Shown: one piece after another, positions 10,824 to 58,289 of the stretch
How the letters are laid out: each line of letters starts with the position of its first letter
How positions within the stretch are numbered: the first letter of the stretch is position 1
NCBI GenBank assembly: GCA_026874595.1
Contig: CM049318.1
Span: 61,414,250 to 61,478,249, forward strand
Direction: 5' to 3'
Source of the DNA: Sipunculus nudus
Lineage: Eukaryota; Annelida; Sipuncula; Golfingiida; Sipunculidae
DNA length: 64,000 bases
Notes under the pieces: model-generated
What the model was told of the DNA's origin: nothing
The model's input: only the letters and a program-made list of their open reading frames with translations
Database searches by the model: none
Made by a program: the position numbers and the translations under genes

Positions 10824-10828
10824 ATTAT

Positions 10829-20330: not shown

Positions 20331-20624
20331 TTTTTCTTGAGGCTCTATTGTAGTCATTTACTTTGATTACAGATTACAGATGCAGGGTCCCACTCAAGGT
20401 CACTGGAAGTCAGCTTTGCCAGGGTTTCTGATTTGTTACAGTCACTAGGGGAGATCCCCTGCTGTGACAGGTGTACAGTTATTCTCAAATCACCACCCCA
20501 ATCCCCCCCCCTGCAAACCAAACCCACCAAGTGTTATGCAGTGATTGATATTGTTTCAACTGTATCTCCTTGATTGAAATGCTGTTTCCACTCCAGTATA
20601 CAAAAACTCTGCTTGAAAAAGTAA

Positions 20625-22974: not shown

Positions 22975-23046
22975 TCAAGGTGTAATCCAGAAGATGCAAT
23001 GTTGTATTAATGTAGCATTTTTAAAGAAATCAGTTTTCTTTTAAAT

Positions 23047-23745: not shown

Positions 23746-24376
23746 CTTTTATTTAAGTTTTCATACACCATGTCAAGTGTTGTTTACATCTAGCCCACCT
23801 AGTAGTACAGCCTTCACTTGCATTATGTAACCCACCCCAGGCAGCTTGCCTTTGCTTAGCTTGGCCACTACCAGCAGACTTCCCCTCTGCCCTGCACCCC
23901 CCCCCCCGATGGTGCATAAACTTGATGACTGTAATTATTATCTGTATTTGATTCATTCTTATTCTAGGCTATGCTACATTTTAGATTTTGTATTGTACCA
24001 CCAGGGTTACAATGATTAAAGTGCACATTTAATTGTGTCCATAAAGTGGTGTATTGCTATGAAAGTGTGGATGTTCATCAGATAAGTAATTCCTTACTTC
24101 AGAAGAGTAAAAACTTCACCAGGTGTGAAATTGACTATTAATTCCAGTAATAAATTAAAGCTGAGATAGTAATTAGCACAGTGATATTTTTTGTCGATCA
24201 TTCAACCAACAGTGTGTATACTTTATTTTAAAAAAAATGTTTGATTTTATCAAATTTACTGAATCTTTTATTTTATCTTGGTGAATGAAATTAAGCATAT
24301 ACTGAAAACTCCAATGTGCAAAATTTTTTAATAGTGATTCAAGGAATAATCTTGTAGATGCCATGTTGGGACATTA

Positions 24377-25700: not shown

Positions 25701-25791
25701 TTTCTTTTAAATTCAGCTTAAACATTTGTGATTTAAAAATAACAAAAATATATGTGTATGCATAATATGACCCAATATGAGCTACACTCTC

Positions 25792-32729: not shown

Positions 32730-34745
32730 AGGGCCCCACTTCATTAGAAGTGGGTTCCCTATAGTAATCACCCTGTCCGTCTAGCTTTCCATCTGTCCAT
32801 CTTAGCGTCTGTCCATCCACAAATTCATTTCTGGATGATAACCAAAGTTTTGATTCACATATGGATTTCAGACTTCACATATGAATGGCCCAATACTGAA
32901 GCAAGAACCCTATTGATTTTGGGGTCATTAGGTCAAAGGTGAAGGTCTCACTTTTTTATCCCTCAGCCCTTAGGCTTATGGGCTATTGTCGTCACCCAAG
33001 CTGTCTGTCCATCCGTCCGTCCGTCCAGCGGCCGTTAACTTTTACCTTGTGAGCGGGATATCTGAAAAAGGATTCACCGTCAGAATTTTATTTCCTCGGT
33101 AAAGATGTATATCGACAAAATCTAGGTCAAGTTCGAAGATGGGTGACCTTGACCTATTTCTCTACATTTTAGAGCAGATTATAGAAAAACACTTAGATGC
33201 TTATTTCTCAGAAACTATTTGGTGGATTTTCACAAAACTTACTATGATTATTGAGACTGATAGTCTGTACCTGCTACACAAGTTTGGTGGCGCCACCTAC
33301 AATTTCTGATTTTTAATGAATTTTTATCGGATTTTTCAACTTTGGGCTTGTGAGCGGGATATCTCTTAAAGGATTCACCTTAGGAATTTTATTTTTTTCT
33401 GTGAAGATGTATATTGGCAAAATCTCAGTCAAGTTCGAAGATGGGTGACCTTGACTAATTTTTCTTCGTTTTAGAGCTGATTATAAAAAAAAAACATGTA
33501 GAAGATTATTTCTCAGGAACCATTGGGTGGATTTTCACAATACTTACTATGATCATAGGGACTGATGGTCTGTAACTGCTGCACAAGTTTGGGGGCACCA
33601 CCTACAATTTCTGATTTTTAATGAAATTTTCTTGGATTTTTCAACTTTGGCCTTGTGAGCGGGATATCTCTAAAAGGGTTCACAATAGGAATTTTATTTC
33701 TTTGGTGAAGATGTATATCGACAAAATCTTGGTCAAGTTCGAAGATGGGTGACCATGACCTACTTTTTAAGGTCACAGAGCTTATAATAGAATAAAACTT
33801 AGAAGCTTATTTTTCAGGAAGCATTTGGTGGATTGTTATGAATCATGGTACATACCTCTCCATTTTAAATTTATAACTGAGACATGTACAGATATAAGTG
33901 AGAACAGATATTTAGTACTTGTTGCTGTTACCACCTTTAAACACTGTTCTTTTGGCTGAGGGCTTTTGTCAGCTTCTGCTGATATTCTAGTTAAAACTTT
34001 TTGGATGCATTTTAAGCCACACTTGCCATGCCAGTCTTTCCATCTTACATATAGGATACCTGCCAACAGGGAAACATCTCTATCAATCTTTGGGTCACAA
34101 GTTCAAAGGTCAAGGTCACATGAGCCATCTTTCCACAAATTCATTTCCAGATGATAACTACATTTTGGATTCACATATGGATTTCAAACTTTACTTTTAT
34201 ATGCCCCAACACTAAAAATATATCCTTTTTAATTTTTGGTCATGAGGTCAAAGGTCAAGGTCACAGTCCCCACTCTTCTAAAAGATTGTGGATGCATTAT
34301 AAGCAAAACCTTTCATACCAGAGGTTCCATCTTATACTCATACAGTTCACCTGCCAGTAGGCAAATACCCCTTTCCCTATTGGGGTCACAAGTTAAAAGA
34401 TCATAGGAGTCATCTGTCCATGCAGTGATTTTCAAAGCCTTTCATATCTGCTTTTTGGATTCACACATGGATACATGGATATGACAAAGCAAGAACCCTA
34501 TTGATTTAGGGTTATGAGGTCAGAGGTCAAGGTCACAGGACTCACAATTCTAAAATGTTATAAATGCCTTTTAAGCCAAACTTTTCTTGCCAGTCTTTCT
34601 ATCTTGCTTCAGTGTTTAAATACAGTTTTTGGTCAGTTTCCTCTGTCTCTGCCTTTTAATCAGGTCTTTTACTTTTCACTCAGCCCACACTAGAAGTCTA
34701 TGGGGCTTTAGTGGGGCCCTTCCTGACCTGTCAGTATTCCCCTTG
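32730..34745 (+). mobile_element. Family C Helitron-like element with a nested insertion
   Basis: Left AGGGCCCCACT (32730-32740) and inverse AGTGGGGCCCT (34710-34720) match over 11 bp, followed by hairpin CTGAC-CT-GTCAG (34723-34734) and CCTTG|TT at about 34741. A pyrimidine run (CTGTCC...) follows the left end. The core is made of satellite monomers with AGGTCA clusters homologous to family A monomers (GGATGCATTTTAAGCC at about 34000, AGGTCAAAGGTCAAGGTCAC at about 34244). Interrupted at 32956-33991 by another element. Confidence 0.75.
32956..33991 (+). mobile_element. Nested Helitron-like element with its own 303-bp satellite
   Basis: Left TTATCCCTCAGCCC, then GTCC run (33001-33030). Right: GGCTGAGGG (about 33954-33962, inverse of the left motif), hairpin TCAGC-TTCT-GCTGA (33969-33982), then CTAG|TT (33987-33992). 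The core has three tandem units of about 303 bp marked by TTGTGAGCGGGATATCT (about 33047, 33348, 33653). Inserted within a family C satellite monomer. Confidence 0.85.
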
Positions 34746-38792: not shown

Positions 38793-39127
38793 CAAACCAT
38801 ACAACAAGAATGCATTCCCAGAAGTCTGATCTTGGGTATGCATGACAATTTCCAAACAAGGAGAAAAAACTAAATACACAAATGAAACACTGGTTGGAAG
38901 CATGAAAAATCTCGATTTGTGAAGTTTCTTGTTACAGCCACCAGGTGACATGTATGCTGTGTTTGTTTTATGCCACTGATCGCACCTTTCTTTCACTTGT
39001 GTACAGAAGTAAGCAAACAGTTTTAGAACAAAATATAAACAGATACCAAAATATTAAAGAGAAAACAACATACTCAATAATTGTATCCCCAGACAAAGTC
39101 GGGGGATACTATGTTTTCATACCGGTC

Positions 39128-39179
<52 letters not shown>
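39128..39179. repeat. (CCG)17-like microsatellite inside family A element
   Basis: About 52 bp of pure CCG. The same position has about 9 units (interrupted) in the copy at 20625, about 5 at 46612 and about 3 at 24377, so it is length-variable. Confidence 0.97.
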
Positions 39180-39749
39180 ATATGAATCTTGTTGGCGCGA
39201 TAACCCAAAAAATATTTCACGGAACTTTACCAAAATTGGTATATGTATAGATATGGGTAAGAGGACGACGCCTATTTAAAATGAGGTCATGACCTTTACT
39301 AGGAGAGTGTCCTTGACCTTGAATAGGTCCAATTTCGGGGAAAATCACACAAATTCTTTAATATCTCAAGAAATTTTGCATGGATTTATCCCAAAATCAA
39401 GTTGATGGAAGATCATGGATAGGGTTGTCATGTTCCAGAAACTGGTGGCGCCACCTATTATTCTTTACTTGTTTTCGTGCCGTTTAATACCCCCTAAATT
39501 GCCACCTTACAGCACTGTGAGCATTATAAGTCAAAAACTAATGGACAGATTTCTTTTATATTATGCATATACATAGGTATGGGTTATGGGATGATGCTTA
39601 TTTAAATTGGGGTCATGACCTTTCCTATGATAGTGGCCTTGACCTTGAATATTGCCATATATGGTGAAAATCACACACCTCTTATGATATCTCCAGTGTT
39701 GATAGCCATATGGATTTCAAACATGACTTATGTATGGCCAACCACTAAA

Positions 39750-42400
39750 GTAAGAACCCTATAGGTTCTAGGGTCATGAGGTCAAAGGTCAAGGTCACTG
39801 GACTGGCATTTTAAAAGATACTGTGGATGCATTTTAAGCCAAACTTTCATCCCAGGTCTTCCATCTTGAATATATAGCTCACTTGCCAATAATGGATGAT
39901 CCATATAAATTTTGGGGTCACAAGGTCAAAGGTCAAGGCCACAGGAGCTATCTGTCCAAAAATTAGTTTCTGGATGATAATTCCTGCTTTTATTGATGTA
40001 TGGATTTCAAACTTGACTTATATATGTCCCATTGGAAAAGCAAGACCCAAATTGATTTTGGGGTCATGAGGTCAAAGGTCAAGGTCACAGGAAACCTCTT
40101 TAAAAAGATTGTGGATGCATTTTCAGCCAAACAATTCATCTCAGATCTTTCATCTTGCACATATAGTTCACCTGCCAAGAGTGGAAGACCCCTATCAATT
40201 TTGAGGTCACAAGGTCAAAGGTGAAGGTCACAGGAGCCATATGTCCAAAAATTAGTTTCTGGATGATAATTCCTGCTTTTATTGATGTATGGATTTCAAA
40301 CTTGACTTATATATGTCCCATTGGAAAAGCAAGACCCAAATTTATTTTGGGGTAATGAGGTCAAAGGTCAAGGTCACAGGACACATCTTTAAAAAGATGT
40401 GGATGCATTTTCAGCCAAACATTTCATCTCAGATCTTTCATCTTGCACATTTAGTTCACCTGCCAAGAGAGGAAGAACCCTATCAATTTTGAGGTCACAA
40501 GGTCAAAGGTGAAGGTCACAGGAGCCATCTGTCCAAAAATTAGTTTCTGGATGATAATTCCTTCTTTTATTGATGTTTGGATTTCAAACTTGACTTGTAT
40601 TTGACCCATTGGAAAAGCAAGACCGGAATTGAATTTGGGGTCATAAGGTCAAAGGTCAAGGTCACAGGAAACCTCTATAAAAAAATTGTGGATGCATTTT
40701 CAGCCAAACAATTCATCTCAGATCTTTCATCTTGCACATATAGTTCACCTGCCAAGAGTGGAAGACCCCTATCAATTTTGAGGTCACAAGGTCAAAGGTG
40801 AAGGTCACAGGAGCCATATGTCCAAAAATTAGTTTCTGGATGATAATTCCTGCTTTTATTGATGTATGGATTTCAAACTTGACTTATATATGTCCCATTG
40901 GAAAAGCAAGACCCAAATTGATTTTGGGGTCATGAGGTCAAAGGTCAAGGTCACATCTTTAAAAAGATGTGGATGCATTTTCAGCCAAACATTTCTTCTC
41001 AGGTCTTTCATCTTGCACATTTAGTTCACATGCCAAGAGAGGAAGAACCCTATCAGTTTTGAGGTCACAAGGTCAGAGGTGAAGGTCACAGGAGCCATCT
41101 GTCCAAAAATTAGTTTCTGGATGATAATTCCTTCTTTTATTGATGTTTGGATTTCAAACTTGACTTGTATTTGACCCATTGGAAAAGCAAGACCGGAATT
41201 GAATTTGGGGTCATAAGGTCAAAGGTCAAGGTCACAGGATTAATCTATAAAAAGATTGTGGATGCATTTTCAGCCAAACAATTCATCTCAGATCTTTCAT
41301 CTTGCACATATAGTTCACCTGCCAAGAGTGGAAGACCCCTATCAATTTTGAGGTCACAAGGTCAAAGGTGAAGGTCACAGGAGCCATATGTCCAAAAATT
41401 AGTTTCTGGATGATAATTCCTGCTTTTATTGATGTATGGATTTCAAACTTGACTTATATATGTCCCATTGGAAAAGCAAGACCCAAATTGATTTTGGGGT
41501 CATGAGGTCAAAGGTCAAGGTCACATCTTTAAAAAGATGTGGATGCATTTTCAGCCAAACATTTCATCTCAGGTCTTTCATCTTGCACATATAGTTCACC
41601 TGCCAAGAGAGGAAGACCCCTATCAATTTTGAGGTCACAAGGTCAAAGGTGAAGGTCACAGGAGCCATATGTCCAAAAATTAGTTTCTGGATTTTAATTC
41701 CATCTTTTACTGATGTATGGATTTCAAACTTGGCTTTGTTATTGACCCATTAGAAAAGCAAGACCCAAATTGATTTTGGGGTCATGAGGTCAAAGGTCAA
41801 GGTCACAGGAAACCTCTTTAAAAAGATTGTGGATGCATTTTCAGCCAAAAAAATTCATCTCAGATCTTTCATCTTGCACATATAGTTCACCTGCCAAGAG
41901 TGGAAGACCCCTATCAATTTTGAGGTCACAAGGTCAAAGATGAAGGTCACAGGAGCCATATGTCCAAAAATTAGTTTCTGGATGATAATTCCTGCTTTTA
42001 TTGATGTATGGATTTCAAACTTGACTTGTATATGTCCCATTGGAAAAGTAAGACCAAAATTGATTTTGGGGTCATGAGGTCAAAGGTCAAGGTCACAGGA
42101 CACATCTTTAAAAAGATGTGGATGCATTTTCAGCCAAACATTTCATCTCATATCTTTCATCTTGCACATATAGTTCTCCTGCCAAGAGAGGAAGAACACT
42201 ATCAATTTTGAGGTCACAAGGTCAAAGGTGAAGGTCACAGGAGCCATCTGTCCAAAAATAAGTTTCTGGATGATAATTCCTGCTTTATTGATGTATAGAT
42301 TTCAAACTTGACTTGCATATGTCCCATTGGAAAAGCAAGACCCAAATTGATTTTGGGGTTATGAGATCAAAGGTCAAGGTCACAGGACACATCTTTTAAA
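39750..42400. repeat. About 285-bp satellite array with nuclear-receptor half-sites
   Basis: Nine tandem monomers within the family A element. Each has two half-site clusters. Example one: GGGTCA 40061-40066, AGGTCA 40069-40074, AGGTCA 40076-40081, AGGTCA 40082-40087 (spacings 2, 1, 0). Example two: AGGTCA 40204-40209, AGGTCA 40212-40217, AGGTGA 40219-40224, AGGTCA 40225-40230. Similar monomers form the core of the copies at 20625 (about five), 24377 (about two) and the unrelated-end element at 32730. Confidence 0.93.
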
Positions 42401-42577
42401 AGATCAAGGTCACAGGACCAACATCTTCAACAAGATTGTGGAATCGTTAGATGGAATAAACAATAAATATGCCAAGTGTCAGTATATGCTGCTAAAAATG
42501 GGGGTCTGTTCTTGTAGGAGGGGGGCCTACTATGTCTGGGGATACTCTGGCACCTGCGGTGCCAAGAAATGTCTAGT

Positions 42578-45008
42578 TATTTAATGCTCCTGGTATCTTC
42601 ATAGACCCCTTAATTTTAGGGGTGGAGTTTGGCCTTACACTGTGCGTGTAAACCTGTGACCATTGACCCTGAAATGAATGATCTATCCATGCTCCACACT
42701 CCAATGCAGGGAGATTGAAGCACAAAAGACTTTCACCTTGAGACAAGTATATCAGATGCCCGAGTACTTGAGTACTCCCCATGGAACAGTTTACATGACC
42801 GGATTAGTAACTCTCGCATGTATGTCCCAGTACAAGCAGTAGCAGGCTATGTTTTACAGTTACATGACAGGTGATGGCTCTGATAGTGTTTTTCACCTTT
42901 GATAATAACATCAGGCAGAGACCTGGAGAGTGTAAGAATGATGTTTTGAGACCTGACATTTATGCAAGTTAGGTTAGAGTTATGGTGGGACTGGTACCCT
43001 AGATTTAGCAGTAGCATTTATAAATTTGTCATTCTTCTGCTTTTTTCATCTGAATGTAGTTTGCTGCATCTGTGCCTGACAGAATCATAAAACCGTTGTT
43101 TTATCTTTGCAGGTGTAATAAATTTTGATTTTACAGTAATTACAACCACATTTAAGTCATCCTGTAAAGTAGACAGAGGAGTTAATAACTCTAGCTATAA
43201 AAACAATAACAGTCTCTTGGATCATATGCACACTATATATTGTTTCTGCAACTCAGACATTTGGGCTCACGAGGTCATATGCTGGGGCATTTATTTTCTC
43301 AAGGTTTATATACTATAGGGTGTCATTCTTCAAGGCTTTCCCCCACAGACATATTTACTGTTTTTTGTTACTGTCTAGGAATATTTCCTCTTAGTTCATA
43401 TATATATATTCAATGCTGGCTGATGTCATTCCCTATGGTAACTATTTCCTTAGAGAATCTATTAAATTTTCAGAAGTAATTTGGAACAACATAATATGTC
43501 CTCGTTTAAATGGTCCATTACCATTGCAAAGATTGGGCAATATGTTATCATTCACTTGAATTCAGGGGGGGGTGGGGAGGGTGCAATTTTGCTTTGGAGG
43601 GCAGAGCTTACAATATGTGAACTAACCATCAAATTGTTGAACCAAAATACATGAATTTTTCTTTCCTTGCATTCATATATTACATGCACTGATATAATAC
43701 ATTCTATTCAATATGTATATCCATACACTAGCAATGGGTTGGGCAGCCTCCTTTTTCTGCTGTGCAGAGCTGACATGGGAAACAACCATCAAAAAGGATG
43801 AACCATGATGCATGCATTTCTCTTTCCTAGCATTCATATAATACATGCACTGATATAACACACACTGTGCAGTACATCTCTTACTGAGTGACTCCTGCAC
43901 TTCTGGATTCACGGCTGGTTTCCTCCTTGTTCACTGAGGTAAAAGGTGATAATGAAATGAGGACCTCCCTGAGAGATTAATTTACATCCGGTGGCAGGAT
44001 TATCCTCACTAGTTCTGGACCTGCCCATGGAACCTGCTTAAATTAAATTAAAACAACAATAAAATGTCAGAGTAAGGTGATTCGGGTCACAAGCTCTGTG
44101 GGGTGAGTGATATAATTCATACAGTAAGACTAGGGTTTAAACTCTGTGTATTGTGAATGATTTACCAAGTAAAATATTTGCCCTAAGGTGAGAGCCATTA
44201 GAACAGACAACTCTCATACAGGCCCTTGCAGGCATCACATTACTTAATCAAAAGCTGTAATCTTATATTGAAACGAATGGTGTCCGTGCATTAGTTGATT
44301 AGTAGTGTCTCATCATCAAAGAATCGGGATACAGGTAAGGCAATAATATCATTATATTCACCAGGTATTTTTATATTAAATGTGTTTAAAGAGTACACTG
44401 CCATGGGTGTGTCTCTTAGCTAGTTTCTGTCTGCCATGTTGCAGAGATTTGTTTTCCACAGGAGCCATGTTAAAGTTTAGGTATGTGACGTCATGTGTCA
44501 CTGCATTAGTCATTTGTGGGTCATATTTATTTTGTTTAATATCTGTTCATCTTCATACCCCAGCTTTGGTTTTGCTGTGGTTAGTTGTTTGAAACCCCAT
44601 TCATAGAGTTAGGAACAGATTTTGATGATATCTTTGATGAAAACCCATGGAACAATGAATTTTTTTGGTGAATTGGGGTCACCATTATATGTAATATGTT
44701 ATTAACTATAAATTCTTTTCCTTTATTTCACAATAAAAGTTCCCCCCATATGCACACACAAGTCTTACCTAATTGCACATGTCTTTGTTATGGCAGACAG
44801 AACTGACCTGTGATGCAACTATTAGAGTTGCTGAACTGTGACTCATATATTTCTGCTTTATTTGCTTTCTTATCATGCACTTGCATACTTTGCCAACATT
44901 TGAACAGGAATCAGGCAATATTCTGGATTTGCAGATCTGGAATGTTGGCACAGATATAAACTTTATTTATTTTACATGGATTGTTCAACTAGTTATAATA
45001 ACTAATAA
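42578..45008. other. Region upstream of EcR exons, no gene seen
   Basis: Contains a diverged 161-bp duplication (about 43604-43725 and 43765-43900, sharing AACCATCAAA, CTTTCCT, GCATTCATATA, TACATGCACTGATATAA). An upstream EcR exon may lie here or further left; none could be recognised because the A/B domain is poorly conserved. Confidence 0.45.
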
Positions 45009-45577: not shown

Positions 45578-45736
45578 TGTCTTACTTATTTCTACATAAG
45601 AATATTTTTTTTAATGTCTAAAATATAAGTACATGACTGTGAAAAAAAGCCTATATGCAAAAATCCTTCTTAAACCACACCTGTATTATTACCTGTGTTA
45701 CCAATTATTGAATGTCTCTTGTGTTTTGTGTTCCAG

Positions 45737-46102
45737 TAGTCAGTGAGGCCAACTCGTCTACGGAAGAGGAGATGGTATTGATGCCAGCCAATGAGGGCAC
45801 CACAAATAATGGCACCGATTCCGACGACCATGGCTCCCAGTCGCTGACGGCAGTCACTGGCGTCAACTCAATGCAAAATAAGTTTGCCGAAATGACATTC
45901 ATTCCTGAAGGAACGGGAACCATGGGTCACCAGACGAACACGATTTTGCCAAGCTCAAGTGTCAACAATAACATGCTGGATCAGAAAAAACGTAAAGGGG
46001 TAGGGATTGCTGGGAAGAGCATTGAGGAAGAACTGTGCTTGATATGTGGTGACCGGGCATCGGGGTATCATTATAATGCCCTCAGCTGTGAAGGGTGCAA
46101 AG
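45737..46102 (+). CDS. EcR: EcR exon: A/B region and first zinc finger
   Basis: The first two bases complete a codon begun upstream; the frame then reads 121 residues plus one base. The A/B part is rich in Ser, Thr, Asn, Glu and Asp, as expected for an AF-1 region. A basic patch (QKKRKG, residues 82-87) precedes the first finger, whose zinc ligands are Cys100, Cys103, Cys117 and Cys120. The exon ends in the Gly codon of CEGCKG, a classical nuclear-receptor splice position, with donor gtaagc. An in-frame ATG at 45712 lies in the upstream polypyrimidine stretch; it could serve only if this exon is not spliced, which I think unlikely. Confidence 0.93.
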
Positions 46103-47058
46103 GTAAGCAACAGTTTTAGCTTAGCAGACTGTACATGGTCTGAGCTATAGAGATGACCCATTACCATCATCTGTCCATCACAAAACGCAGGGCGCAAATC
46201 AAAACCCTCCAGTTGTGAAGGTTGCAGAGGGGCCATAGCTAAGGGTTTAGCTAAGATGACTAGACACTGTCTTTGTCTGTCATCTGTCCATCATTGATCA
46301 TAGGGCACAAAAGGTTAAAGCTACATTTTCCAAATTCAAAATGATGTAAATTTTTTAATGATGGACTTGGAACTAGGTCACTGTCACCTAATTGCCTTGA
46401 GAAACTTGGCAAATTAATTGTAATTATTTAATTGTTTAATTATTTTATTAATAATTGTAATTATTTAATATGTAAATTTCAAAACACACTGACCCATAGT
46501 TAGGTGTAAGATTTCCTTTTAACACATAAATAAATATAAGTACATATAATGTACATCAAAATAATGACTCATTCTGTTTAAAATATAAAAATGTCAGCCT
46601 GCATTTATTTATTGTATCCCCAGACAAAGTCGGGGGATACTATGTTTTCATACCTGTCCCGCCGCCGCCGCCGCATATAAATCTTGTTGGTGCGATAACC
46701 CAAAAAATATTTCACGGAACTTTACCAAACTTGGTATATGTATAGATGGGTAAGAGGACGATGCCTATTTAAAATGAGGTCATGACCTTTACTAGGAGAG
46801 TGTCCTTGACCTTGAATAGGTCCGATTTTGGAGAAAATCACACAAATTCTTAAATATCTCAAGAAATCTTTCATGGATTGATCCCAAAATCAAGTTGATC
46901 GAAGATCTTTTCAATGGCTAGGTCAAATTTGAACATGGATGACCTTGATACATTTTTCAAGGTCACAGCAGCGATACAGTTTAAGTGTGTACACCTTTAA
47001 GTAAAGGGGTTATAAAAAATGAGGCATAATGAAGATGTTTGTAATTTTACTAGAGATT

Positions 47059-47096
<38 letters not shown>

Positions 47097-50000
47097 GGCC
47101 CAGATCCTGATCAGCGATTGGTCCAGACCAAATCCCTATCAGTATTCAGTCCTTATCAGTGGACCAGATCCCGATTTGGGTTTAGGCCGGACTGAATCCT
47201 GATCAGGATTTGGTCTGGACCAATCACCTACAGGTCCAGATTGGGATCCTGGCCTTGACATATATATGACTGTGTGTGTGTATATATATGTTTGCCCAAA
47301 AAAAGGTTTCTTTCTCAGGCACTCTTCCTCAGTATTGACTATTGCATCAAAAACTATATCATTATGCCAAAGAAATTAAAGGTATGGTTCTCAAGCACAG
47401 CCCGCGTCAATTTTAACACCCCGCATTAAACATATTTTATTTTGATTTTCATCTTTCAAGAAGATAAAATACGATTTCTTTTGTTATGTAGTACTATTAC
47501 CTGTTCAGCAAAAACGCCCTGTTATTTTCTTGCTTTCCATGGTCATATGACATTTTTATCAAAACATCTAAAAAAAGTGATTTCTGAAAAAAAGTGTCTG
47601 AGAACCATACCTTTTTATTTTTTTGGCCTTAAAGCTATTAAGTTCAATTGATTTTGAGTAGAAATATATCAATTTTGAGCTCCAGCGGCTTGGAAATTAC
47701 TTTCTAATGAAAATAATAAATTTTTGATCAGATTTTGTTTTGTAATAATGTGCTTTTAATTCTTCTACAAACCAATTTCGATTTTATGTTTTCCCCTGTT
47801 GTATGAATTTTTATATAACAAAAAATTTATAATAAAAAATGAGAAAGAAACCATACTGATTTATGAAAAAAAATGCCAGAGAACTCAGCCTTTATTTTGG
47901 CTGTATTGATATAAATAAATCTAAATATGTTTACACACTTCTGAAATTATTGACATTTAATCTTTTTGCAGGTTTCTTCAGGAGAAGTATTACTCGTAGT
48001 GCAGTATATCAATGTAAATATGGTGGCAACTGTGAGATGGACATGTGGATGCGGAGGAAATGTCAGGCGTGTCGTCTCCGCCGTTGTCGAGAAGTTGGCA
48101 TGAAAGAAGAATGTGAGTAGATCTGTTGAATAATTCATGACACCCCACCTATTATAATCAACTGGGACTAGATGTCATTGAACATTATAATACAATTTAC
48201 TTCTTTACGTGACTCAGGTGCCATGTTACATCACACAAGCTCTTTACTTTTTTTTGATGAAATATTTATGTTAGTTCTGTATAAGGTATTACAACCAGCA
48301 AACCAGAGAGTAATTTTGAAAGTCTGTTAAAGGTAAATCTATTAATTCTTAAGTTCTGCACATGGTGTTACTACTGAAACCATTGAGTATTCTTAAAGGT
48401 TTAAAGTTTGTTACATTATAACAGATATCATGGTAAATTTTTTAGAATATAAAATTTCACTCTATTTACTGTGATTCAGGTTAGCAAAAATGTTTCAATA
48501 TGTTGCCATCATTTAGACACTAAAGAAGCTAGTAGCATGCACAACCAGTTCCCATAGAAACTGTATTATTCCTCTGGGGATAACCTTGTGCAACACTTGC
48601 ATCAGTTAATCTTATCTCTTTATTGGCTTCTGTCACAGAAGGAAAAATATTTTTGTAACCTCTTCTAGCAAGTCAATACATGACATGGAATGTGTAAACA
48701 GGAAATGCCATTATTTGTAAACTTACCACATATCCAAGTTATGTCATATATGGATGTAAAGCCTTAAATCATCATCTTGCAGATGAGGCGATAAAGGGAT
48801 ATAAAAAGAAAAAAGTAGTCATATCTGCTAGAAGTGCCAGGGTTACCATGGCAATAAAATTTAGGCTGCTAAACAGACTGTTACTTGAGGGATAATAAAA
48901 ATTCCCCCTAAGACCAATCTGAACGATCTCCTGACAATGAAAACCTGCAGTCCCCCTTCCCATAACCCCCTTCCTCCAAGTAAAAAAAAGTACAGTAAAA
49001 CAGGACAATGACCACCTCAATTTAGCAACAACCTCAACAAAATGACAAACTGTTCATGGTCAAGATTATTTTTTTGGGCCTTTTTATAAGACCCTGCTTA
49101 GACGAACACCTTGGAAAAATATAACCAGTTGGACAAGGTCCTGTTTGTGGTAATAGTTTCTGTTTTAAAGATGTATAGGCTTGGAGCACTACTATTTGTA
49201 GGGATCAAAAACTTAGAAAATCCTCAGAATCAAACCCAACATGAAATTCTGTATTCTCAACAAATCTGTATTTCAGGCTTATTATCAGAAGAACAGTGTA
49301 AAGCACGTGATGCGCGGCGGAAAGCACGCATGGAATTAAAGCGTAAACAGCATGGCGATGAGGTGGTTCAACAACACAGTCCTGACAGTCAGAACTCTGA
49401 GCCACCACCGCCGCCAGCCCCAGACAAGGCCAGCCTCGTACTGGCTAGCAATCCCATGGATTATATTTCCTCAGACGAAAGGGAACTTGTCGAAAAAATT
49501 GTTATGTATCAAGATGAATTTGAGCTCCCCAAAGAGGATGACTTGCAGAAATTGACAGTGAGTAAAATTCATGTACATTCACATTTAAAGTGATTAGTCA
49601 TAGGTAAAAAATGATTTTAATGGCATTGTGATTGACCAATTGTTTGGAAATAAATTACTCCCTTATATGTTTTATATTAAGGTGAACTGTCACTGGTCTC
49701 ACATATATTGTGTCAGTAGTATAAATGTCAGCATACATTTAATGTTTCTCAAATTTCAGAGACTTTTAACTAAAAATATCAATTCATTATCTTTTGTATA
49801 TCTGCCATTATTGCATGAAACATTTTCACCATTTCGAAGTCCCTATAGCTTCTCTTACAATTGATTAAAATTTTCGTGAATATTTTATGTGATTGCTATG
49901 ATAATGGTTATGTACATTATATTAGTTACTGTACAGCAGAATTATGAAAATGAAAACCTGGCAAAACACTGGAGAAGTGAAAATGTTAACATTTAACCTT

Positions 50001-53000
50001 GTGTATATGATGCCACCCATAGTACATACCAAGACCAGAATGTTGATACCTTTGGCAAGTGGCATGATTGTGTGGTTGGCTTCATATACTCTAGGTTTAA
50101 GGCCCAAAAAAAAAGTACAGTTCTTAGGCATCACCCATGATGCATCAGTTTTCACCTCCCGCATCAAAATTTTTATATTGATTTTCCTCTTTTAAAGAAG
50201 ATAAAATAATAAAACTTTGATCAGGTTTCCTTTTGTTATGTAGTGCTTTAACCTGTTTAGCAAAAAAAATCTGTTCTTATCATGCTTTTCCCTGATCATT
50301 TGACATTTTTATCGAAACATACAAAAAAGGTAAAAAAAATCGGTAGCCCGCACTGAGTACTGAAAAAAGTGCCTGAGAACCATACCTTTTTTTCTTCCAT
50401 AATTTTTGCGATTCTCATATCTTTAGTGTTTCGTGAGGGTTTAATTTTCGCGATTTACCATACAGCAACTACACAATGTAAATAACCATCATTATATCAC
50501 TCACCTAATTTGCAAGCAAAATCTTAACAATTGCATAAGAAGATTAGGGACCAGGTTGAAAGTTTTCATGTAATTGTGGCAGATATGTTAAAGGATTGAT
50601 ACTAATCAAATCATGAATCTTTGAAACGACAGTGTTATAAAATAGCATGCTTATATTGACACTACCTGCACACTATACATGAGATGGCATTGAAGCAATA
50701 GAAAAAATTTCTGTTTGCATGTACAGAGGAGGTGTCTTATTTACAAAGGTTTTATTTTGGCGAAAATTGCGAAATTTGAAACCTTGGCGAACAAAAAGCC
50801 AACCAGAGTATGTATTACCCTTGGTTGGTGACACATTTCCTGTGTGGCTGTGTACACAGCGAGGTTTGATCAAGACCCTGGTGGTGGTTTGTAGTCTCTG
50901 ACTGCTTGTCTCTTTATTTTGTCTCTCCTCCCATGGGTGAGACTATAGTGTTTGGTCGTCTATGTCATTTCTTGTGAACCGGTTAACTTTTGAAATTTTA
51001 ATTGTGTCTTCTGATATCTCAGAAAAGTTCAAAAACTGACACTGACCTTCATTGTAAAGGTCAAACAGGCCAAAATTTTAATGAATTTTTTAACCTCATA
51101 ACTTTTAAAGCAGCACATATTTTTCCCCTCAAATTTAAAAACACTAATTGTTTTAACCAAGATCTTTGACAAATTAAAAAACAGTGACCCTTACCTTCAT
51201 TTTCAAGGTCAAATCAGCAAGAATAGAAATTATTTGTGAATGCTGTGACTTTTGAGGCCCATAGGGAGGGGAAACATATATTGGTTTTTGCATTGCAAAA
51301 ACCTACCTGATTCTTGTTTTAAATAACGTATAGCTGCTACATTTGCAACAATTAATGTTTTACAGTTCGTTCAATATCACTTTAGATCTTTGAGTGCCAG
51401 ACCCCTCTGGTGAACAGCCTCCTTAAAAGTTTTATTGCAGTACTAAAAATCTGCATGGGCTGTTCTTTATCTTATCAACAGCTGGCTTGATCTCACCAAA
51501 AACATGTATTCATAAGAAAGGAACCAATATTTTGAACTTAGTGTCTTTTATACTATACAGAATAGTGTGCATTCAATGAATGTTCAACGTTAGATCTCCT
51601 ATATCATTCACTGGAACTTTTGTGCTGTCAGTTGGAACTCCATAAGTGACAATTGGAAATCCTGTAGAATCAGAACTCTATTATGATCAGTCGATTTCTC
51701 CAAGATTTGGCAGTTTTAGCCATATTTTAGGTCAATTTCACATACCTGAATATGATGGAGACATTCTGTATGCCATATCATATGTTCAAGCAGTTATTAA
51801 AATAATTATAAAACATGTACATTGTTTTTAGTCCAGTCATCTGTTGTCCATATCTCTTCTTGTAAATGCAGATTTTTCTTTAAAAAAATTACAATTAGAA
51901 ATTTTTTCTACAAAAATCAGATGAGTCTGAAAAACTGGTGACCTTTACCTTGATCTTCAAGGTAAAATCAGCTAAAATATCACATTTTTGGAACCTCATA
52001 ACTGCAAAGTTAAGTATTGCAAAATTTCCCCATTAAATTTAATGCACTAGTTTCAACCAAGTTCTTGGATGAGCTTGAAAACTGGTGACCTTTGCTTGGC
52101 CACTTGTGTAAAAAAATGTCAAGAAGCTTGACAGGAAACATACTTTATGCATATAACACACAGATTATATTAAAAAGGTCATGATATTAATCTGTAATCA
52201 ACCTGTATCCCTCACAATGATATGTCATTGTTTCATTCTGTACTAGGTTCTCTGCTTTCCTGGAAATCAGGGAAAACCATGAAAATGGGGAAAAGCCATC
52301 CTGAAAGTCAAGAACCTTGAGAGAAATTTATGTCTGAAATCAGGGAAAAATTAAGGAATGTGAGCTAAATACTTGAAATTATTGAAATGTCAGGTAAAAT
52401 GTTTCAAATCATGTCAAAAGTCATCATAATTCTGGGTGAACTGCTTCAAATTTGGAAAAAGTCAGAGATTTCAGCAAAGGTGAAAAATTAGATTATCCAA
52501 GGGAAAATTGGTGATATTGATTTCTGTCATGTTCAAACAGAGAATCCATTTGATAATTGGTTGAAATGGCTTTTTAGTGTTGAAATTCCTTAAATAAGTT
52601 AAGATAATTATCCTTAATTCACTGGCATTTTTAAAATTCACCATTGAAAGGTCATGGAATTTTGTATTCATGACATGCTGGGAACCCTGCTGTATGTCAG
52701 TTCACATTTGTATAATTATACAATATACCTAAGGCAAAAAAAAATAAAAGGTATGGTTCTCAGGCACTTTTTTTAAGAAATCAGTGCAGGTCAGCAATAT
52801 TTTATTTTTACCTTTTGTTGTATGTCTTGTTAAAAATGCCATATGATCAGGGAAAAACATGAAAATAACAGAATTTTTTTACAAAACAGGTCAAAGTTCT
52901 TCATGAAAAGGGAAATCTGATCAAAATTGTATTATTTTATCTTCTTGAAAGATGAAAATCAAAATAAAAATTTTTGAAGCGGGGGGGTTTAAATTGACAT

Positions 53001-56000
53001 GGGCTGTGCCAGAGAACCATACCTTCACCTAAAATGTTGCATGCAGCTTGTTTTCATGGCTATGTCAAGTCCATCTGTCATCCTTACATTGCCACAACCT
53101 CTGATTTTTGTTTTTGATTTACAGGAGATCAAATTCAGCTCTGCCAGTAAACCGAAAGATTTGTCCGAGACCATATTCACACAAATGGCTGAGATCACGG
53201 TGGTCGTGACTCAGTTGATAGTGGAGTTCGCAAAGCGAATCCCTGGCTTCACAGACCTTCAAAAGGAAGACCAGATCATTTTATTAAAGGTAATTATGAT
53301 GATTCACAGTCGCTGGTGGTAAGGTTGGGCTTCATCCATCAGCCAGTCTGTTTTATACAGCACAACCCTGTAATTCAGCTTTTAATCACCTTATCTCCTG
53401 CAAGACCCAAGCAGGAAGTTAACCTGAAGGGCTGATAATTCCGGCTCAAAATGAATTTGACCTTCTAGACGCACAGTTGACATGCAGACTTATATTTTAC
53501 CATTGAGGCTTCTTAGAAAATGAAAAAGCTATCCATCAACCACAAATAATTTGATTGCTGAGACTTGGCTTTTTGAATAGGCAACTAAAGATTGTATTGC
53601 TTGGAATTCCAATTATTTTCTTGAAACTTGCTGGTCTCTGTAGTAATAGACCCTTGCAGTTTGTAGTTTTTTTTTTTGCAAGATATGTTTTTGCTCTCAG
53701 ATCATGAATGGATATTTCATTAACTCATTTACCATAAGCTAGATCACTGTTCCAGACTTAAAACAGTATACAACTCGTGGGACTAATTTTAATGAAGTGG
53801 TTTTTGCGGGGGATGCTTCTTGACATTTGTTAATCAAATAATCACACACGACTTCCAAAAACAAAACGGTTTGAGCAACACAGATAAATCAAGAGTTATT
53901 CAAAACAGTATCATACTTTTACACAGGCAGAATGTTAAATTGCTTGGTCGGTGGCACTGAACAATATCCCTGTATGTTGCAGCCAAAAAAACATAGCACA
54001 GTCATTTTATAAACAGAGAAAGCAAGCGTAGTCTGCAAAACCACAGTGGTCGACTTTGTGATGAAGCCACAGTTTTTTGTGTTTTTTATATGTACCAACA
54101 AATTCTGAACCCACCTCCTTTTGGGGGACTTTGTCATCTTAAAACTAGCTTGCTTTAACCTGGTGTTTATCCTTCTTTAGTAAGGCCAAAAAAATAAAAA
54201 GATATGGTTCTCATGCACTTTTTGTCAGAAATCAGTGCGGGTGGGCGGTATTTTATTTTTGACCTTTTTTTGTATGTTTCCATAAAAATGTCATATGATC
54301 AGGGAAAAACATGAAAATAACATTTTTTTCCCACTAAACAGGTTAAAAACCCCACACAACAAAGGAAATTGTATCAAAATTGTATTATTTTATCTTCTTG
54401 TAGGATGAAAACCAAAATAAAAACGTTTGATGCGGGGGGTTAAAATTGATGCGGGCGGTGCCTGAGAACCATACCTTTTATTTTTTTTGGCCTAATAAGA
54501 ATTTTTTACTAAATTAAATTAATGAAAATTCCTTCAAGACAAAGACCATTAGAAAGAAATACTGTGCTAGGTTAAAAATTCTTAATGGGATATTGTCTGA
54601 GTTCAAGACAACTGAGAGACTGATTTTAAGTGGATGGATTTTGTTAGGGATGCTATCTGGGCACAGATGTGTATGGTTTGATATGTATATTCAGAAAACT
54701 TTCAATTGCAGTATAAATGCAGAGAATGTTTTGTAAGCGGTTTCTAAATGTTTGCAAAAGGATTTTGTGCAAGGAAAACAACATAATTACTCATTACTCC
54801 ACCAAAAAGAAAGACATTGATTAACAAAAATATGAACACCAGTTTTGAAGAACATATACTTTTGGTATTGCCTTAACATGATGACTAGGTTTCATCTAAC
54901 AAAAACAGCTAATAATTAATCTTCTAAAGAATTTTCTTCTTTTTCTTCAGGGTTCAGCTTGTGAGGTGATGATGCTGCGTACTGCCCGGAGATATGATGT
55001 GGACAGTGACACCATTGTGTTTGCTAATGGCATGCCGTACACGAAAGAAAACCTAAGATTTGCGGGTCTCAATGATTACGTGGAAAGCATGTTCCAGTTC
55101 TGTCGAGGCATGGGTCGCCTTCATGTTGATAATGCAGAGTATGCCCTGCTCACTGCTGTTTGTATTTTCTCAGGTATGCTGTTTTCATGCTTCCTGGTGA
55201 TAATTTACCTGTTTGTGTTCATCATTTCTCATGTGTGTACATGTGAAAAATTATACTTTGTACCAAAACCCCTTTTCACCTTTTTTTACGTGATATTTCT
55301 TTCAAATATATTTTTGTTTACCACTACAAATTAGCTTTTATCAAAGTGAGAAATGTGGCATTTTATGATGAATAACATAAGCATGAAAAAAATAAATTTA
55401 TTTCTGTTTTGAAAGAGCTGCAAAAATGATAGCACCCATTCAAGTGGCCATATCTGATTGTATCGCCAGACAAAGTCTGGAGATACTATGGTTTAAGCAC
55501 ATTTGCAATGTCTCCGCTGCCACCGCAGAGATTTCGTTTGGACGCGATAACTCAAAAAATATTTAACAAATTTTTACCAAACTTGACAAATGCATAGATA
55601 TGGGCGAGAGGACAAAGCCTATTTAAAAAGGGTCATGACCTTTACAAGAAGGTGACCTTGACCTGGAATAAGTCAATTTTGGGGGAAAATCACTCAAATT
55701 CTTAAATATCTCAAGAAATCTTGCATGGATTGATCCAGAAATCAACTTGACTGAAGATCTTGGATAGTGTTGTCATTTACCGGAAACTTGTGGCACCACC
55801 TGTTATCCTTTTCTTGTTTTCATGCCGTTTAATACCCCCTTCATTGCCACTTAACAATAGTGTGAGCATTTTAAGTCAAAAACTAATGAACAGATTTCTT
55901 TCATATTATGCATATACATAAACATGGGTTATAGGATGATGTATTTTTAAATTGGGGTCATGACCTTTCCTGTGAGAGAGGCCTTGACCTTGAATATGCG

Positions 56001-58289
56001 ATATATGGTGAAAATCTCACAAAATCATAAATATCTCAATAAGAGATGCATGGATTGGTCCAAAAATCAAATTGACGGAAGATCTTGAATAGCTTTGTCT
56101 TTTGCGGAAGACAGGTGGCACAACCTATATCTGTCCTTCTCCTGTTTTCTTGCCTTTAAATACCCCATCATTGCCACTTGACAGTACTGTGAGCATTAAA
56201 AGAGTAAAACTTATTAACAGATTAGGCTGAAATTGTGCATGTACATTGATCTTGGATACCTCCATCTTGTATTGAAGACTGGTGGCTCTATCTGCAATTA
56301 TTAGCCATGGTGTCCATCGGTACATATGTGCTTTGGGTGAAAATTGCTCATATCTCCGGAGTGGTTCAAGGTATTGGTCTGAAATTTGACATGTCCATCC
56401 ATCTTGGAAAGTTTTCTCATAAACCAGACAGGTGGCGCCACCTACCTTCCCATTTATGTTGAATAAATTAATGCCCTTTTCTGAGGAGTGATTTTCCCTA
56501 TTGGCCTGATATTGTGCCTATCTATAGATCTTGCACTACTGCATCTTTTACTCAAGACTGGTTGTGCCATCTGCATCGTTTTGCCGTGGTGTCCATTTAT
56601 ACATGTGTTTCTTGTGAAAATTGCTTATAACTCTGGATTCCGGGGGGATTAATTGTCTGGCAATACTATGGCACCTGCAGTGCCAAAAAATATCTCGTTA
56701 TTGATGTAGTGTATCTGTGATGCAACAAACATATGATGTACAAATACCACTGTGACATGATCACTATGAATCGTCAAGTGGATGTAATTTTACTCCATGT
56801 TCTTAGGTCGTCACTAATATGATGCACACCTTACATCTGTTCAGTCATATTTCTTTCTGAAGTAATCATATGGAATCCATGCATGGGAGAGTATTATTTT
56901 GCTGTTAGGTAATCTACACATTTGTCTGATTTGCCTCTGGGGTAAATAAACTTAAGTTTTAGTGCATTGTATAAAAATTATCACAAAAATGAGGTGGACA
57001 GGGGTGGTGGAATATAGTATAGCTGTGTTTCCATATGTGTGTATATGCAATTACTGGCAGGATTATATAGCTTTACAGTGTATCTAGCATGTCATCCAAA
57101 CAAAAAGACGCCGGAGCAACATCATTTTACCTGAACCTTCTGAGTTCAAAAAGACCTTATTGCTCATATGAATATATGGAAATACAACAATAACAAAATC
57201 AATTGTTCATGTATATATGCATGCACAGGTGCACAGATTTATAAGTAAGGTTATTATCGAAAGAAATGTTATATACAGTAAGTGGCCTGAGTTTGCCTTT
57301 CAACTATCAGTGAAATTATAGCTTGCTTTCTTGTTTTCCAAAAAAAAATTTCTTGAAAATCCTTTATTCCAACGTCATCAGTACCTGGAAGGCAAAATGG
57401 TGAAATCTTAATAAAACCTCAGAGATTTGCTCTAAAATCTTAAGGACATGTTACAACTTCTGGATTATTCCTAACCCTGCGCATATTAAACTTGATATCT
57501 GTAAGGCCTAATGATAAAGTATCATTCTTGTCATATCATTACCTTCATCCTCATTTGATAGGCAGCACAACCTACTGGTCATGAGCCTGTCCTATAAAAG
57601 AACTTCATATAAGATATAAATACTTAATACCTGAACTATATGTCATTGTGTTTATGATATGTACAGTTTGCCTTTTAATGTTGAGCCTGATGTTAACTGA
57701 TTTTGTGCACATCCATCATATACTTTTATCTGGTTTTAAGTGTTCATAATATTCCCAGCAAAAGCACTAAGTACAAAAGTCAGTAGGTGTTAAGTCCATT
57801 GTTCTTAAATATCAGAAGTAGGTCATTGTGTTTGTAATATACAGTTTTCCTTTTGATGTTGAGCCTGTACTTATCTGATTTTGTGTATGTCCATTGTTTA
57901 TTTTTTATCTGGTTTTAAATATTCATAATATTCTCAGCTAAAGCTCCAACTGCAAAAGTAAAAGTCAGTAGGTGCTCAGTCCATTATTCATTGACAACAT
58001 AGCTGTATTGTTATAATAGTTGTTTTAAAGCAATTTTTCTCAAACTTCAGACCGCCCAGGCCTTCAGAAACCAGAGCAAGTAGAGAAATTACAGGAAGTG
58101 TACGTGCGTACGCTACAACAATATGACTATTATCGACGTCCAAAACATGTGCAGTTTTTTGCGAAACTGATAATGAAGCTCGTAGAACTGCGGACCCTCA
58201 GTGCAGAACACTCTGACGTCATGTTTGCGCTCAAAGTTGAAAAAGGATCTCTACCACCGTTGTTGTGTGAATATTTTGACGTCAGTTAA
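45737..58289 (+). CDS. EcR: Ecdysone receptor homologue (NR1H), six 3' coding exons, 5' incomplete
   Basis: Joined exons 45737-46102, 47972-48112, 49277-49557, 53125-53289, 54951-55173 and 58051-58289 (TAA at 58287-58289) give 470 residues in an unbroken frame. All introns are GT-AG and phases match at every junction. Order: acidic/Ser-Thr-rich A/B region (1-95), two-zinc-finger DNA-binding domain (about 100-169, P-box CEGCKG), basic extension and Pro-rich hinge (170-230), ligand-binding domain (about 235-470) ending in the AF-2 helix LLCEYF. EcR proteins are nuclear ligand-dependent transcription factors that pair with RXR/USP and bind AGGTCA-type repeats; that role is taken from the family. 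The finger phrase [13 protein letters not shown] and the LBD phrases QLIVEFAK and LRTARRYD are EcR-like rather than LXR- or FXR-like. The first exon begins mid-codon after a good acceptor (ttttgtgttccag), so the start codon lies in an upstream exon I could not find. There is almost no F domain after AF-2. Confidence 0.95.
46113..46400 (+). mobile_element. Family B Helitron-like 5' fragments in EcR intron
   Basis: Begins TTTTAGCTTAGCAGACT, followed by GTCTGAGCTATAG, matching the family B left-end hairpin (compare 19608 and 23047), then the CATCTGTCCATC pyrimidine stretch. A second left-end-like motif (TTTAGCTAAGATGACTAG) starts near 46240 and is again followed by TGTCTGTCATCTGTCC, so two fragments appear nested or duplicated. 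The left end lies about 10 bp beyond the EcR exon ending at 46102 and leaves donor gtaagc intact. No 3' hairpin seen. Confidence 0.65.
46612..46985 (+). mobile_element. Family A Helitron-like element, 5' end only
   Basis: Shares the family A left end (TTGTATCCCCAGAC), a short CCG run (about five units) and the unique 5' region with the copies at 20625 and 39080. Identity fades near 46910, before any satellite monomer. No hairpin or CTAGTT end follows. It lies inside the first EcR intron of this window, same orientation as the gene. Confidence 0.85.
47065..47094. repeat. (TG)n microsatellite
   Basis: About 15 uninterrupted TG units in the EcR intron, immediately before the palindrome at 47096-47255. 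Confidence 0.95.
47096..47255. repeat. Long inverted repeat (foldback) in EcR intron
   Basis: Arms 47118-47152 and 47189-47223 are complementary over 35 bp with about four mismatches, separated by 36 bp. Weaker complementarity extends outward to GGCC at both ends. The arms are themselves built of related words (GATCC, TGATCAG, GGTCCAGA). TG/TA microsatellite lies on both sides. Class unknown; it could be a foldback element or a MITE. Confidence 0.85.
47362..47642. mobile_element. Family D MITE, copy 1
   Basis: Terminal inverted repeats: left TTAAAGGTATGGTTCTCAAG, right GTCTGAGAACCATACC followed by TTTTTGGCCTTAA. The middle contains ATTTTGATTTTCATC and GAAGATAAAAT, shared with copies 50098, 52730 and 54181. 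A more diverged pair of similar ends (AAAGGTTTCTTTCTCAGGCA near 47298; GCCAGAGAACTCAGCC near 47875) suggests it sits inside an older relative. Confidence 0.85.
47972..48112 (+). CDS. EcR: EcR exon: second zinc finger
   Basis: Acceptor tctttttgcag precedes GFFRRS, continuing the P-box helix. The exon covers residues 122-168 plus one base: the FFRRS helix, second-finger cysteines 136, 142, 152 and 155, and the [12 protein letters not shown] motif. The D-box region CKYGGNC resembles that of insect EcR. The donor is gtgagt at 48113. Frame continues T|GC into the next exon, making the Cys of KEEC, also seen at the end of insect EcR DNA-binding domains. High confidence. Confidence 0.94.
49277..49557 (+). 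CDS. EcR: EcR exon: hinge and LBD helix 1
   Basis: Acceptor ctgtatttcag. Encodes a basic T/A-box-like extension ([20 protein letters not shown]), a Gln/Ser/Pro hinge with five consecutive prolines (residues 211-215), then LBD helix 1 ([17 protein letters not shown]). Glu251 aligns with the helix 1 Glu of insect EcR that contacts ecdysteroids (Glu309 in Heliothis numbering). The exon ends on a complete codon before gtgagt. Confidence 0.92.
50098..50400. mobile_element. Family D MITE, copy 2 (degenerate left end)
   Basis: Left end TAAGGCCCAAAAAA then AGTTCTTAGGCA; right end AAGTGCCTGAGAACCATACC. Internal AAGAAGATAAAATAATAAAA and the CATTTGACATTTTTATCGAAA block match the other D copies. In the EcR intron between exons 49277-49557 and 53125-53289. 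Confidence 0.85.
50921..51317 (+). mobile_element. Family F Helitron-like element
   Basis: Left GTCTCTCCTCCCATGGG; near the right end CCCATAGGGAGGGGAAAC is its imperfect inverse. It is followed by a 9-bp-stem hairpin (51283-51303, GGTTTTTGC/GCAAAAACC) and CTTG|TT at about 51313-51318. The interior carries AAGGTCAAA half-sites. This is the same terminal plan as families A, B and the nested element, with different sequence. A related degenerate interior (GGTGACCTTTACCTTGATC) occurs near 51930-52110. Confidence 0.75.
52730..53032. mobile_element. Family D MITE, copy 3, just upstream of an EcR exon
   Basis: Left end TAAGGCAAAAAAAAATAAAA then GGTATGGTTCTCAGGCAC; right end GTGCCAGAGAACCATACCTT. 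About 300 bp. Contains CATATGATCAGGGAAAAACA as in copy 4. Ends about 90 bp before the exon at 53125. Confidence 0.9.
53125..53289 (+). CDS. EcR: EcR exon: LBD helix 3 and signature
   Basis: Phase-0 exon of 55 codons (acceptor gatttacag, donor gtaatt). Encodes the helix 3 to helix 5 core, including [11 protein letters not shown] and DQIILLK, which is the nuclear-receptor LBD signature region and forms one side of the coactivator groove. Compared with insect EcR, the helix 3 pocket positions read Ile286, Thr287 and Val290 in place of Met, Thr and Thr. A family D MITE ends about 90 bp upstream of the acceptor. Confidence 0.93.
54181..54495. mobile_element. Family D MITE, copy 4
   Basis: Best-preserved copy: left TAAGGCCAAAAAAATAAAAA, right ending TTTTTTTTGGCCTAA, with the GGTTCTCA/TGAGAACC inner repeat. 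Internal sequence closely matches copy 3. A TAA/TTA-type target is possible but the duplication is ambiguous. Confidence 0.92.
54951..55173 (+). CDS. EcR: EcR exon: LBD helices 5-8
   Basis: Acceptor ttttcttcag; 74 codons plus one base; donor gtatgc. Contains [10 protein letters not shown] (helix 5, with the pocket Arg327), the beta-sheet stretch [15 protein letters not shown] and the helix 7-8 segment ending [11 protein letters not shown]. Arg327 and Ala342 match insect EcR. The beta-sheet/helix 6 Tyr that contacts ecdysteroids in insects (Tyr408) is Leu352 here. Confidence 0.94.
55458..56698 (+). mobile_element. Family A Helitron-like element, old copy in last EcR intron
   Basis: Left TTGTATCGCCAGAC, inverse GTCTGGCAATAC near 56656, hairpin TGGCACC...GTGCCA with loop TGCA region (about 56669-56686), terminus CTCG|TT. 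The 5' region matches the other A copies with many substitutions. The interior lacks the 285-bp satellite and instead has loosely repeated blocks (GGTGGCACCACCTGT, GGTGGCGCCACCTACC). Older and structurally distinct from 20625 and 39080. Confidence 0.85.
57641..57991. repeat. Diverged 180-bp tandem duplication
   Basis: Units 57641-57804 and 57821-57991 align throughout, sharing GTCATTGTGTTT, ATGTTGAGCCTG, TTATCTGGTTTTAA, AAAAGTCAGTAGGTG. In the last EcR intron, about 60 bp before the terminal exon. No known element recognised. Confidence 0.85.
58051..58289 (+). CDS. EcR: EcR terminal exon: LBD helices 9-12 and stop
   Basis: Acceptor caaacttcag; the first two bases complete Asp392 of the FSDRPGL motif, which is highly typical of EcR. 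Helices 9-11 follow (VELRTLS), then helix 12 with the activation core LLCEYF. The protein stops three residues later (DVS, TAA). The last pocket positions differ from insects: His445 replaces Asn504 and Phe467 replaces Trp526. A 3' UTR of unknown length follows. Confidence 0.94.

Follow-up and report, generated by a model that had tools for sequence, protein, structure and literature searches.

A 3.5-kb element in the genome of Sipunculus nudus is a non-autonomous Helentron (HINE) with a satellite core that has spread to thousands of copies. Its nuclear-receptor-type half-sites change little between subfamilies, and private variants, those found in one copy only, are as common at these half-sites as elsewhere in the element. 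Judged from its sequence, the lineage quite possibly retains predicted docking sites for a host protein that binds AGGTCA, a nuclear receptor being the likeliest candidate, and we infer that the sites would matter to propagation of the element because the host protein binds them. The window, the whole 64,000-nucleotide stretch analysed (positions 61,414,250 to 61,478,249 of contig CM049318.1, GenBank assembly GCA_026874595.1), contains several copies of this element, here called family A, one copy of a related family B, and a receptor gene (Table 1).

Several hallmarks of a HINE are present at 39078-42578: subterminal inverted repeats (subTIRs) with a 5' inverted repeat, a 3' palindrome, a 5' microsatellite and central tandem repeats. 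At the 5' end of family A, GTATCCCCAGAC is paired with GTCGGGGGATAC, and the 3' end has GTCTGGGGATAC, so that subterminal inverted repeats are present. The central array has a period of 289 bp, 9.4 copies and 90% matches, with monomers that span 281-291 bp, and the monomers inside one array resemble each other. The longest stop-to-stop frame overlapping the element is 114 amino acids, and by frame length coding capacity is absent. The first-pass annotation had described the element as Helitron-like; this description holds and is more exactly that of a HINE, as given by the subTIRs, the palindrome GGCACCTGCGGTGCC and the satellite core. The same anatomical plan is reported for Cg_HINE of Crassostrea gigas, in which a 5' subTIR with a complementary inverted repeat is followed by a microsatellite, a satellite core, a 3' subTIR and a palindrome, and T-rich insertion sites are reported (PMC7492417). 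This likeness is one of anatomy, not of monomer sequence, and the main text of that paper contains none of the terms "nuclear receptor", "transcription factor" and "GGTCA". DINE-1/HINE elements and Helentrons, for which T-rich insertion is described, are likewise similar in their subTIRs, 3' palindrome and central repeats, but no receptor half-sites are described in the accessible text of that report (PMC4067079).

Table 1. Positions in the window of the family A element at 39078-42578 and its parts, related copies and the neighbouring receptor gene
Feature	Position	Strand	Basis
Complete family A HINE element, 3.5 kb, non-coding	39078-42578	+	self-BLAST against 20622-22975; ends read
5' subTIR GTATCCCCAGAC and inverted repeat GTATCCCCAGACAAAGTCGGGGGATAC	39083-39109	+	read; genome-wide pattern count
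(CCG)n microsatellite, 17 units	39128-39179	+	repeat scan
Left flank, two units: inverted RGGTCA-TGACCT pair (spacing 0) and opposite-strand extended TTCAAGGTCA	39240-39696	+	
Central satellite of 289-bp monomers; full monomers have two half-site clusters each (10 cluster-1 and 9 cluster-2 places)	39709-42404	+	
Cluster 1 example: GGGTCA tg AGGTCA a AGGTCA AGGTCA	40061-40087	+	
Cluster 2 example: AGGTCA ca AGGTCA a AGGTGA AGGTCA	40204-40230	+	
3' end: subTIR GTCTGGGGATAC, palindrome GGCACCTGCGGTGCC, terminus CTAGTT	42528-42578	+	
Second complete family A element	20622-22975	+	self-BLAST, parts search
Third family A element, more diverged, short array	24374-25701	+	self-BLAST, parts search
Family A 5' fragment, between first two recognised receptor exon pieces	46609-46909	+	self-BLAST
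Old relative; both ends, left-flank units and half-sites present, 289-bp monomer match absent; between receptor exon pieces	55457-56699	+	
Family B element: subTIRs GGGCCCCACT/AGTGGGGCCC, related monomers, four half-site clusters, interrupted	32730-34725	+	
EcR/FXR-like (NR1H) receptor gene, five recognised exon pieces	45712-58286	+	Pfam zf-C4, Hormone_recep; PDB matches

Each full monomer holds two clusters of four half-sites at spacings of 2, 1 and 0, as had been noted at first reading, and in both example clusters of Table 1 one half-site deviates from AGGTCA. The arrangement was borne out by reading of the clusters and by a fuzzy scan, which found 42 cluster places across four array stretches, 3 of the 42 being poor partial repeats with 8-9 mismatches. 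Within 39078-42578, RGGTSA occurs 74 times on the plus strand and 13 times on the minus strand. RGKTSA half-sites stand there at receptor spacings, with 17 each of DR0, DR1 and DR2 and no DR3-DR5 arrangement, alongside 13 extended TCAAGGTCA sites and two IR0. The extended monomeric site TCAAGGTCA is that of ERR/FTZ-F1-type receptors, and DR1, DR0 and DR2 are dimer sites of the HNF4, RXR and COUP-TF types.

A chance origin of the half-sites was ruled out by Markov comparison, by the contrast in density and by the absence of triplets in the reversed control. AGGTCA occurs 181 times in the window, compared with Markov means of 32 (order-1), 47 (order-2) and 96 (order-3), and 124 of these occurrences fall inside the four array stretches. 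The density of RGGTCA was 23.8/kb in monomers and 2.27/kb outside them (244 kb), and the exact DR1-DR0 triplet AGGTCAAAGGTCAAGGTCA was found 22,468 times genome-wide and never in the reversed control. Outside family A (173 kb with the family masked), AGGTCA was mildly enriched (175 versus 107 expected) and TCAAGGTCA occurred 9 times versus 2.1 expected; the reversed control gave 101 versus 111. A viral or bacterial origin was rejected, the 26-bp array pattern having no exact match in viral_contigs or genome_contigs.

Self-BLAST and a parts search confirmed the same arrays at 20625-22974 and 24377-25700, where the first-pass annotation had placed them. That annotation had also proposed an array with different ends at 32730-34745. 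The ends are indeed other (GGGCCCCACT/AGTGGGGCCC, plus strand), but the array comprises just four clusters and is interrupted at approximately 32958-33960 by a third element. This third, HINE-like element is nested in family B, and its repeats of about 305 bp also bear GGTCA and TGACCTTGACC motifs. Elsewhere in the window, positions 9299-12354 form a direct tandem duplication of about 1.53 kb with 99.1% identity, apparently recent.

A search of the genome (1.43 Gb in 153 contigs) recovered 3,143 family A five-prime ends (at most 3 mismatches; none in the reversed control) and 20,723 monomer anchors (at most 2 mismatches; 17 in the reversed control). Among the first 100 of the 22,468 AGGTCAAAGGTCAAGGTCA places, 63 had an exact monomer anchor no more than 1.5 kb away; the 37 that did not may be diverged monomers or other repeats. 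At G000:C1:291422-308421, successive exact triplets are mostly 1,262-1,341 bp apart and lie away from exact monomer anchors, perhaps as another tandem repeat bearing the same sites. Along the initial 15.3 Mb of contig 1, an exact monomer anchor was found within 4 kb of 24 of 31 exact 5' ends and was absent from the other 7; the array is therefore normally present in the element, though perhaps not always. Of 20 fetched loci, which had been selected for containing an exact monomer anchor, 18 had the left flank, the monomers and the right flank, and loci L037 and L045 were without one or more of these parts. Scanning of the window and loci (244 kb) for the subTIR gave 52 places, comprising 29 five-prime ends and 23 others, mostly three-prime subTIRs on the opposite strand. 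The five-prime subTIRs were preceded by ATT in 27 of 29 cases and by GTT and TTT in the remaining two. A fuzzy scan of the same 244 kb for the palindrome GGCACCTGCGGTGCC found 22 three-prime ends, 20 of them followed by CTAGTT. At L039-L040 (G000:C1:1402500-1422300), six family A elements stand in a row about 2.6-2.9 kb apart and five share an upstream flank, which indicates tandem duplication of an inserted element together with its surroundings.

The claim that variation is lower at half-sites than in the remainder of the monomer was borne out in the monomers, the left flank and family B. The window and loci contained 192 monomer matches, of which the 146 covering more than 200 columns were used. 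Non-consensus bases made up 0.027 of half-site positions and 0.073 of the rest, a 2.7-fold reduction that was equalled by 8 of 288 circular shifts. Since the monomers had been sampled through a 21-bp anchor, the anchor columns were dropped from later counts. The 14 in-window monomers gave 0.027 versus 0.068, with 15 of 288 shifts as good, or 31 of 287 when near-identical copies were removed (11 left). When the monomers were binned by divergence, the least diverged bin had a ratio of half-sites to rest of 0.64 and the remaining six had ratios of 0.27-0.43, the values in the deepest of these being 0.076 and 0.270 (n=10). The consensus of the first monomer type (23 matches) differed from that of the others at 3 of 48 half-site columns and 40 of 214 other columns. 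In the left flank, for which sampling did not depend on the flank's own sequence (40 matches, 34 covering more than 300 columns), half-sites stood at 0.023 and the rest at 0.057; 1 of 517 shifts was as good, or 2 of 517 without near-identical copies, and a rank test on substitutions gave p=0.05-0.06. The four monomer pieces of family B, summed, had changes at 10 of 113 half-site and 121 of 462 other positions. RGKTSA was kept in 776 of 855 hexamers (91%), compared with 71% of control hexamers at equal degeneracy. Spacer columns were as conserved as half-sites (0.0267 and 0.0270 in the 146 monomers), and among 27-bp windows cluster 1 was in the lowest 1% for divergence and cluster 2 in the lowest 16% only.

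To separate variants by their spread among copies, near-identical copies were removed, leaving 110 monomers and 30 flanks, and a variant was scored as shared when present in at least five monomer or three flank copies and as private when present in one. Shared variants were fewer at half-sites (7 per 84 half-site columns versus 184 per 696 others, pooled), while private variants were equally frequent (39 of 84 versus 333 of 696), a difference with an odds ratio of 3.1 by pooled Fisher test (p=0.005). In the monomer, private variants occupied 28 of 48 half-site and 157 of 214 other columns, and shared variants 6 of 48 and 84 of 214. The corresponding counts in the flank were 11 of 36 and 176 of 482 (private), and 1 of 36 and 100 of 482 (shared). 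Monomers alone gave p=0.03 (0.05 without near-identical copies and 0.04 at a lower threshold). The left flank alone gave p=0.06, a threshold-sensitive value that rose to p=0.31 when shared meant at least two copies. For shared variants, 5-6 of 267 circular mask shifts were as good in the monomer and 1 of 517 in the flank, or 4 of 517 without near-identical copies. The longest monomer run free of shared variants was TCAAAGGTCAAGGTCAC, and half-site blocks made up 4 of the 10 longest such runs in the left flank, of which the two longest (47 and 37 bp) hold no half-sites and are equally constrained. A preference for RGKTSA among shared over private half-site variants was set aside for small numbers (3 of 6, or 3 of 10 at the lower threshold, versus 5 of 28).

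A deficit in shared variants together with equality in private ones suggests constraint during propagation of the element rather than host conservation of copies, and the equal frequency of private variants makes inserted copies look close to neutral. In a tree-based count, terminal-branch changes were lower at half-sites (1.42 versus 2.46 per column; p=0.0003 by permutation). This count was not taken as main evidence, because half-site columns were left out when the tree was made and a bias results; the reduced terminal changes weaken the claim that inserted copies decay fully neutrally, but the private-variant count is trusted more. Collectively, these data suggest, with partial dissent from the tree-based count, that the sites are preserved as the element diversifies, as expected if they serve the element rather than the host.

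Because spacers and blocks without half-sites are equally conserved, the view stays alive that the half-sites are functionless, an old part of the repeat that is carried passively and persists through tandem duplication, gene conversion and a small number of source copies. The likeness of monomers within arrays and the moderate statistics also fit this explanation. We consider it rather unlikely, however, as the deficit of shared variants appears in both core and left flank and mask shifts seldom did as well. A typical element has just two copies of the flank unit, and array homogenisation should consequently be weak there; among the self-BLAST matches listed (E 1e-10) none of at least 60 bp joined the flank at 39078-39708 to the monomers.

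Constraint at the level of the lineage with near-neutral copies would fit equally well if the half-site blocks were read by the element's own Rep/helicase or by RPA, as happens with iterons in other rolling-circle replicons, and their resemblance to receptor sites were coincidental. Recurrence of the motif as short direct and inverted repeats in flank, core and family B agrees with such a role, as does conservation of the spacers. Receptors fit the degeneracy and the extension of the sites, but the same pattern would be expected from binding of Rep or RPA. Nevertheless, the sites retain RGKTSA, the longest variant-free monomer run keeps the TCA extension of receptor sites, and the motif is common to family B despite differing terminal repeats. 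Recognition by the element's own machinery seems unlikely to us.

The genome contains at least 143 Helitron_like_N matches, and seven of those listed lie in stop-free open frames of 2,229-2,426 amino acids, so rolling-circle transposition may be recent. An autonomous Rep locus bearing family A ends was not found in the four regions examined: the family A subTIR was absent from three Rep loci (L051-L053, 3.4-3.6 kb each) and from two 3-kb pieces near a fourth. These two 3-kb stretches had no match to family A elements and only two AGGTCA, which would count against reading by the element's own machinery if this Rep were the partner of family A; its frame runs on through the upstream piece, so that the 5' end of that element lies beyond it.

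The arrays had been reported to lie upstream of an EcR coding region, and this was upheld: the first recognised frame of an EcR/FXR-like gene starts at 45712, 3.3 kb past the array. The best PDB matches of its DNA-binding domain were to the bile acid receptor (1.4e-36) and the ecdysone receptor (8.2e-36). Directly past the last recognised exon piece, a 30-bp tandem repeat at 58772-59040 forms an open frame of MKEMDSS repeats. The further suggestion that the arrays are ready-made receptor enhancers kept by the host and feeding back on EcR is very improbable. Three complete elements, the old relative and the 5' fragment all lie in or upstream of the gene on the same strand, their density in the window is well in excess of the genomic average (4 five-prime ends versus 0.14 expected, and 18 monomer anchors versus 0.93), and terminal-branch changes at half-sites were reduced in one count. 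However, private half-site variants are not depleted and thousands of further copies exist; with 3,143 five-prime ends genome-wide, finding one copy close to a receptor gene is in itself unremarkable. EcR prefers the IR1 arrangement, and feedback through it was rejected, as the five window elements contain no IR1 site, strict or loose. Proximity to the receptor gene is a local cluster of a very common element.

Constraint between lineages with little or none in private changes fits selection on propagation and not host use of many copies. If retained docking sites underlie this pattern, the likeliest binder would be a nuclear receptor using the extended monomeric TCAAGGTCA (ERR/FTZ-F1 type) or DR1/DR0/DR2 (HNF4, RXR or COUP-TF type). 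A receptor bound in germ cells or early embryos would make chromatin accessible or draw the element into active regions, and either effect would make copying by an autonomous Helentron more likely; effects on nearby genes, EcR included, would be by-products. It is possible, though doubtful, that the lineage has been selected to keep receptor-site arrays for its own spread, with a germ-cell or early-embryo receptor acting as landing or activation signal and the genome-wide load (22,468 AGGTCAAAGGTCAAGGTCA and, by extrapolation, perhaps 150,000 half-sites) also forming a competing sink. GCNF/NR6 was dropped as a candidate DR0 binder on evidence from oyster, which is not final for Sipunculus: the NR6 group has no reported member in the oyster genome (PMC4070562).

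Selection on propagation is favoured by the half-site deficit in monomers, left flank and family B, by the 22,468 triplets and by a precedent in Caenorhabditis, where Helitrons carry clustered HSF-1 sites and HSF-1 association and heat-shock induction are reported (PMC6927752). Against it stand the constrained blocks without half-sites, the conserved spacers, the moderate significance and the reduced terminal-branch changes, as well as the array-less relative at 55457-56699, the 7 of 31 5' ends without an anchor and the lack of a linked autonomous partner in the regions examined. The Caenorhabditis elements resemble family A in the rolling-circle spread of dense predicted sites for one class of host factor, but the factor differs, and the family A sites, predicted from sequence, form satellites in a Helentron-type element. 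In Alu, DR2 retinoic acid response elements are said to have arisen mainly from CpG deamination and are bound by RAR in cells (PMC1785376). There too direct-repeat receptor sites were multiplied by a transposon, as DR2 motifs, whereas each family A monomer has two arrays with four half-sites apiece. No description of receptor half-sites in satellites of HINEs was found in the titles and abstracts searched, a body of literature with most subscription journals outside its scope, and the array sequence itself had no occurrence there.

For regulatory sites spread by transposons, it is usually hard to tell benefit to the host from benefit to the transposon. In family A, shared and private variants point opposite ways, favouring benefit to the element. 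Should receptor binding be confirmed, HINE satellites would offer a tractable example of how a selfish element exploits hormone-receptor biology, and the large decoy pool of receptor sites would matter for endocrine studies of this animal and its relatives.
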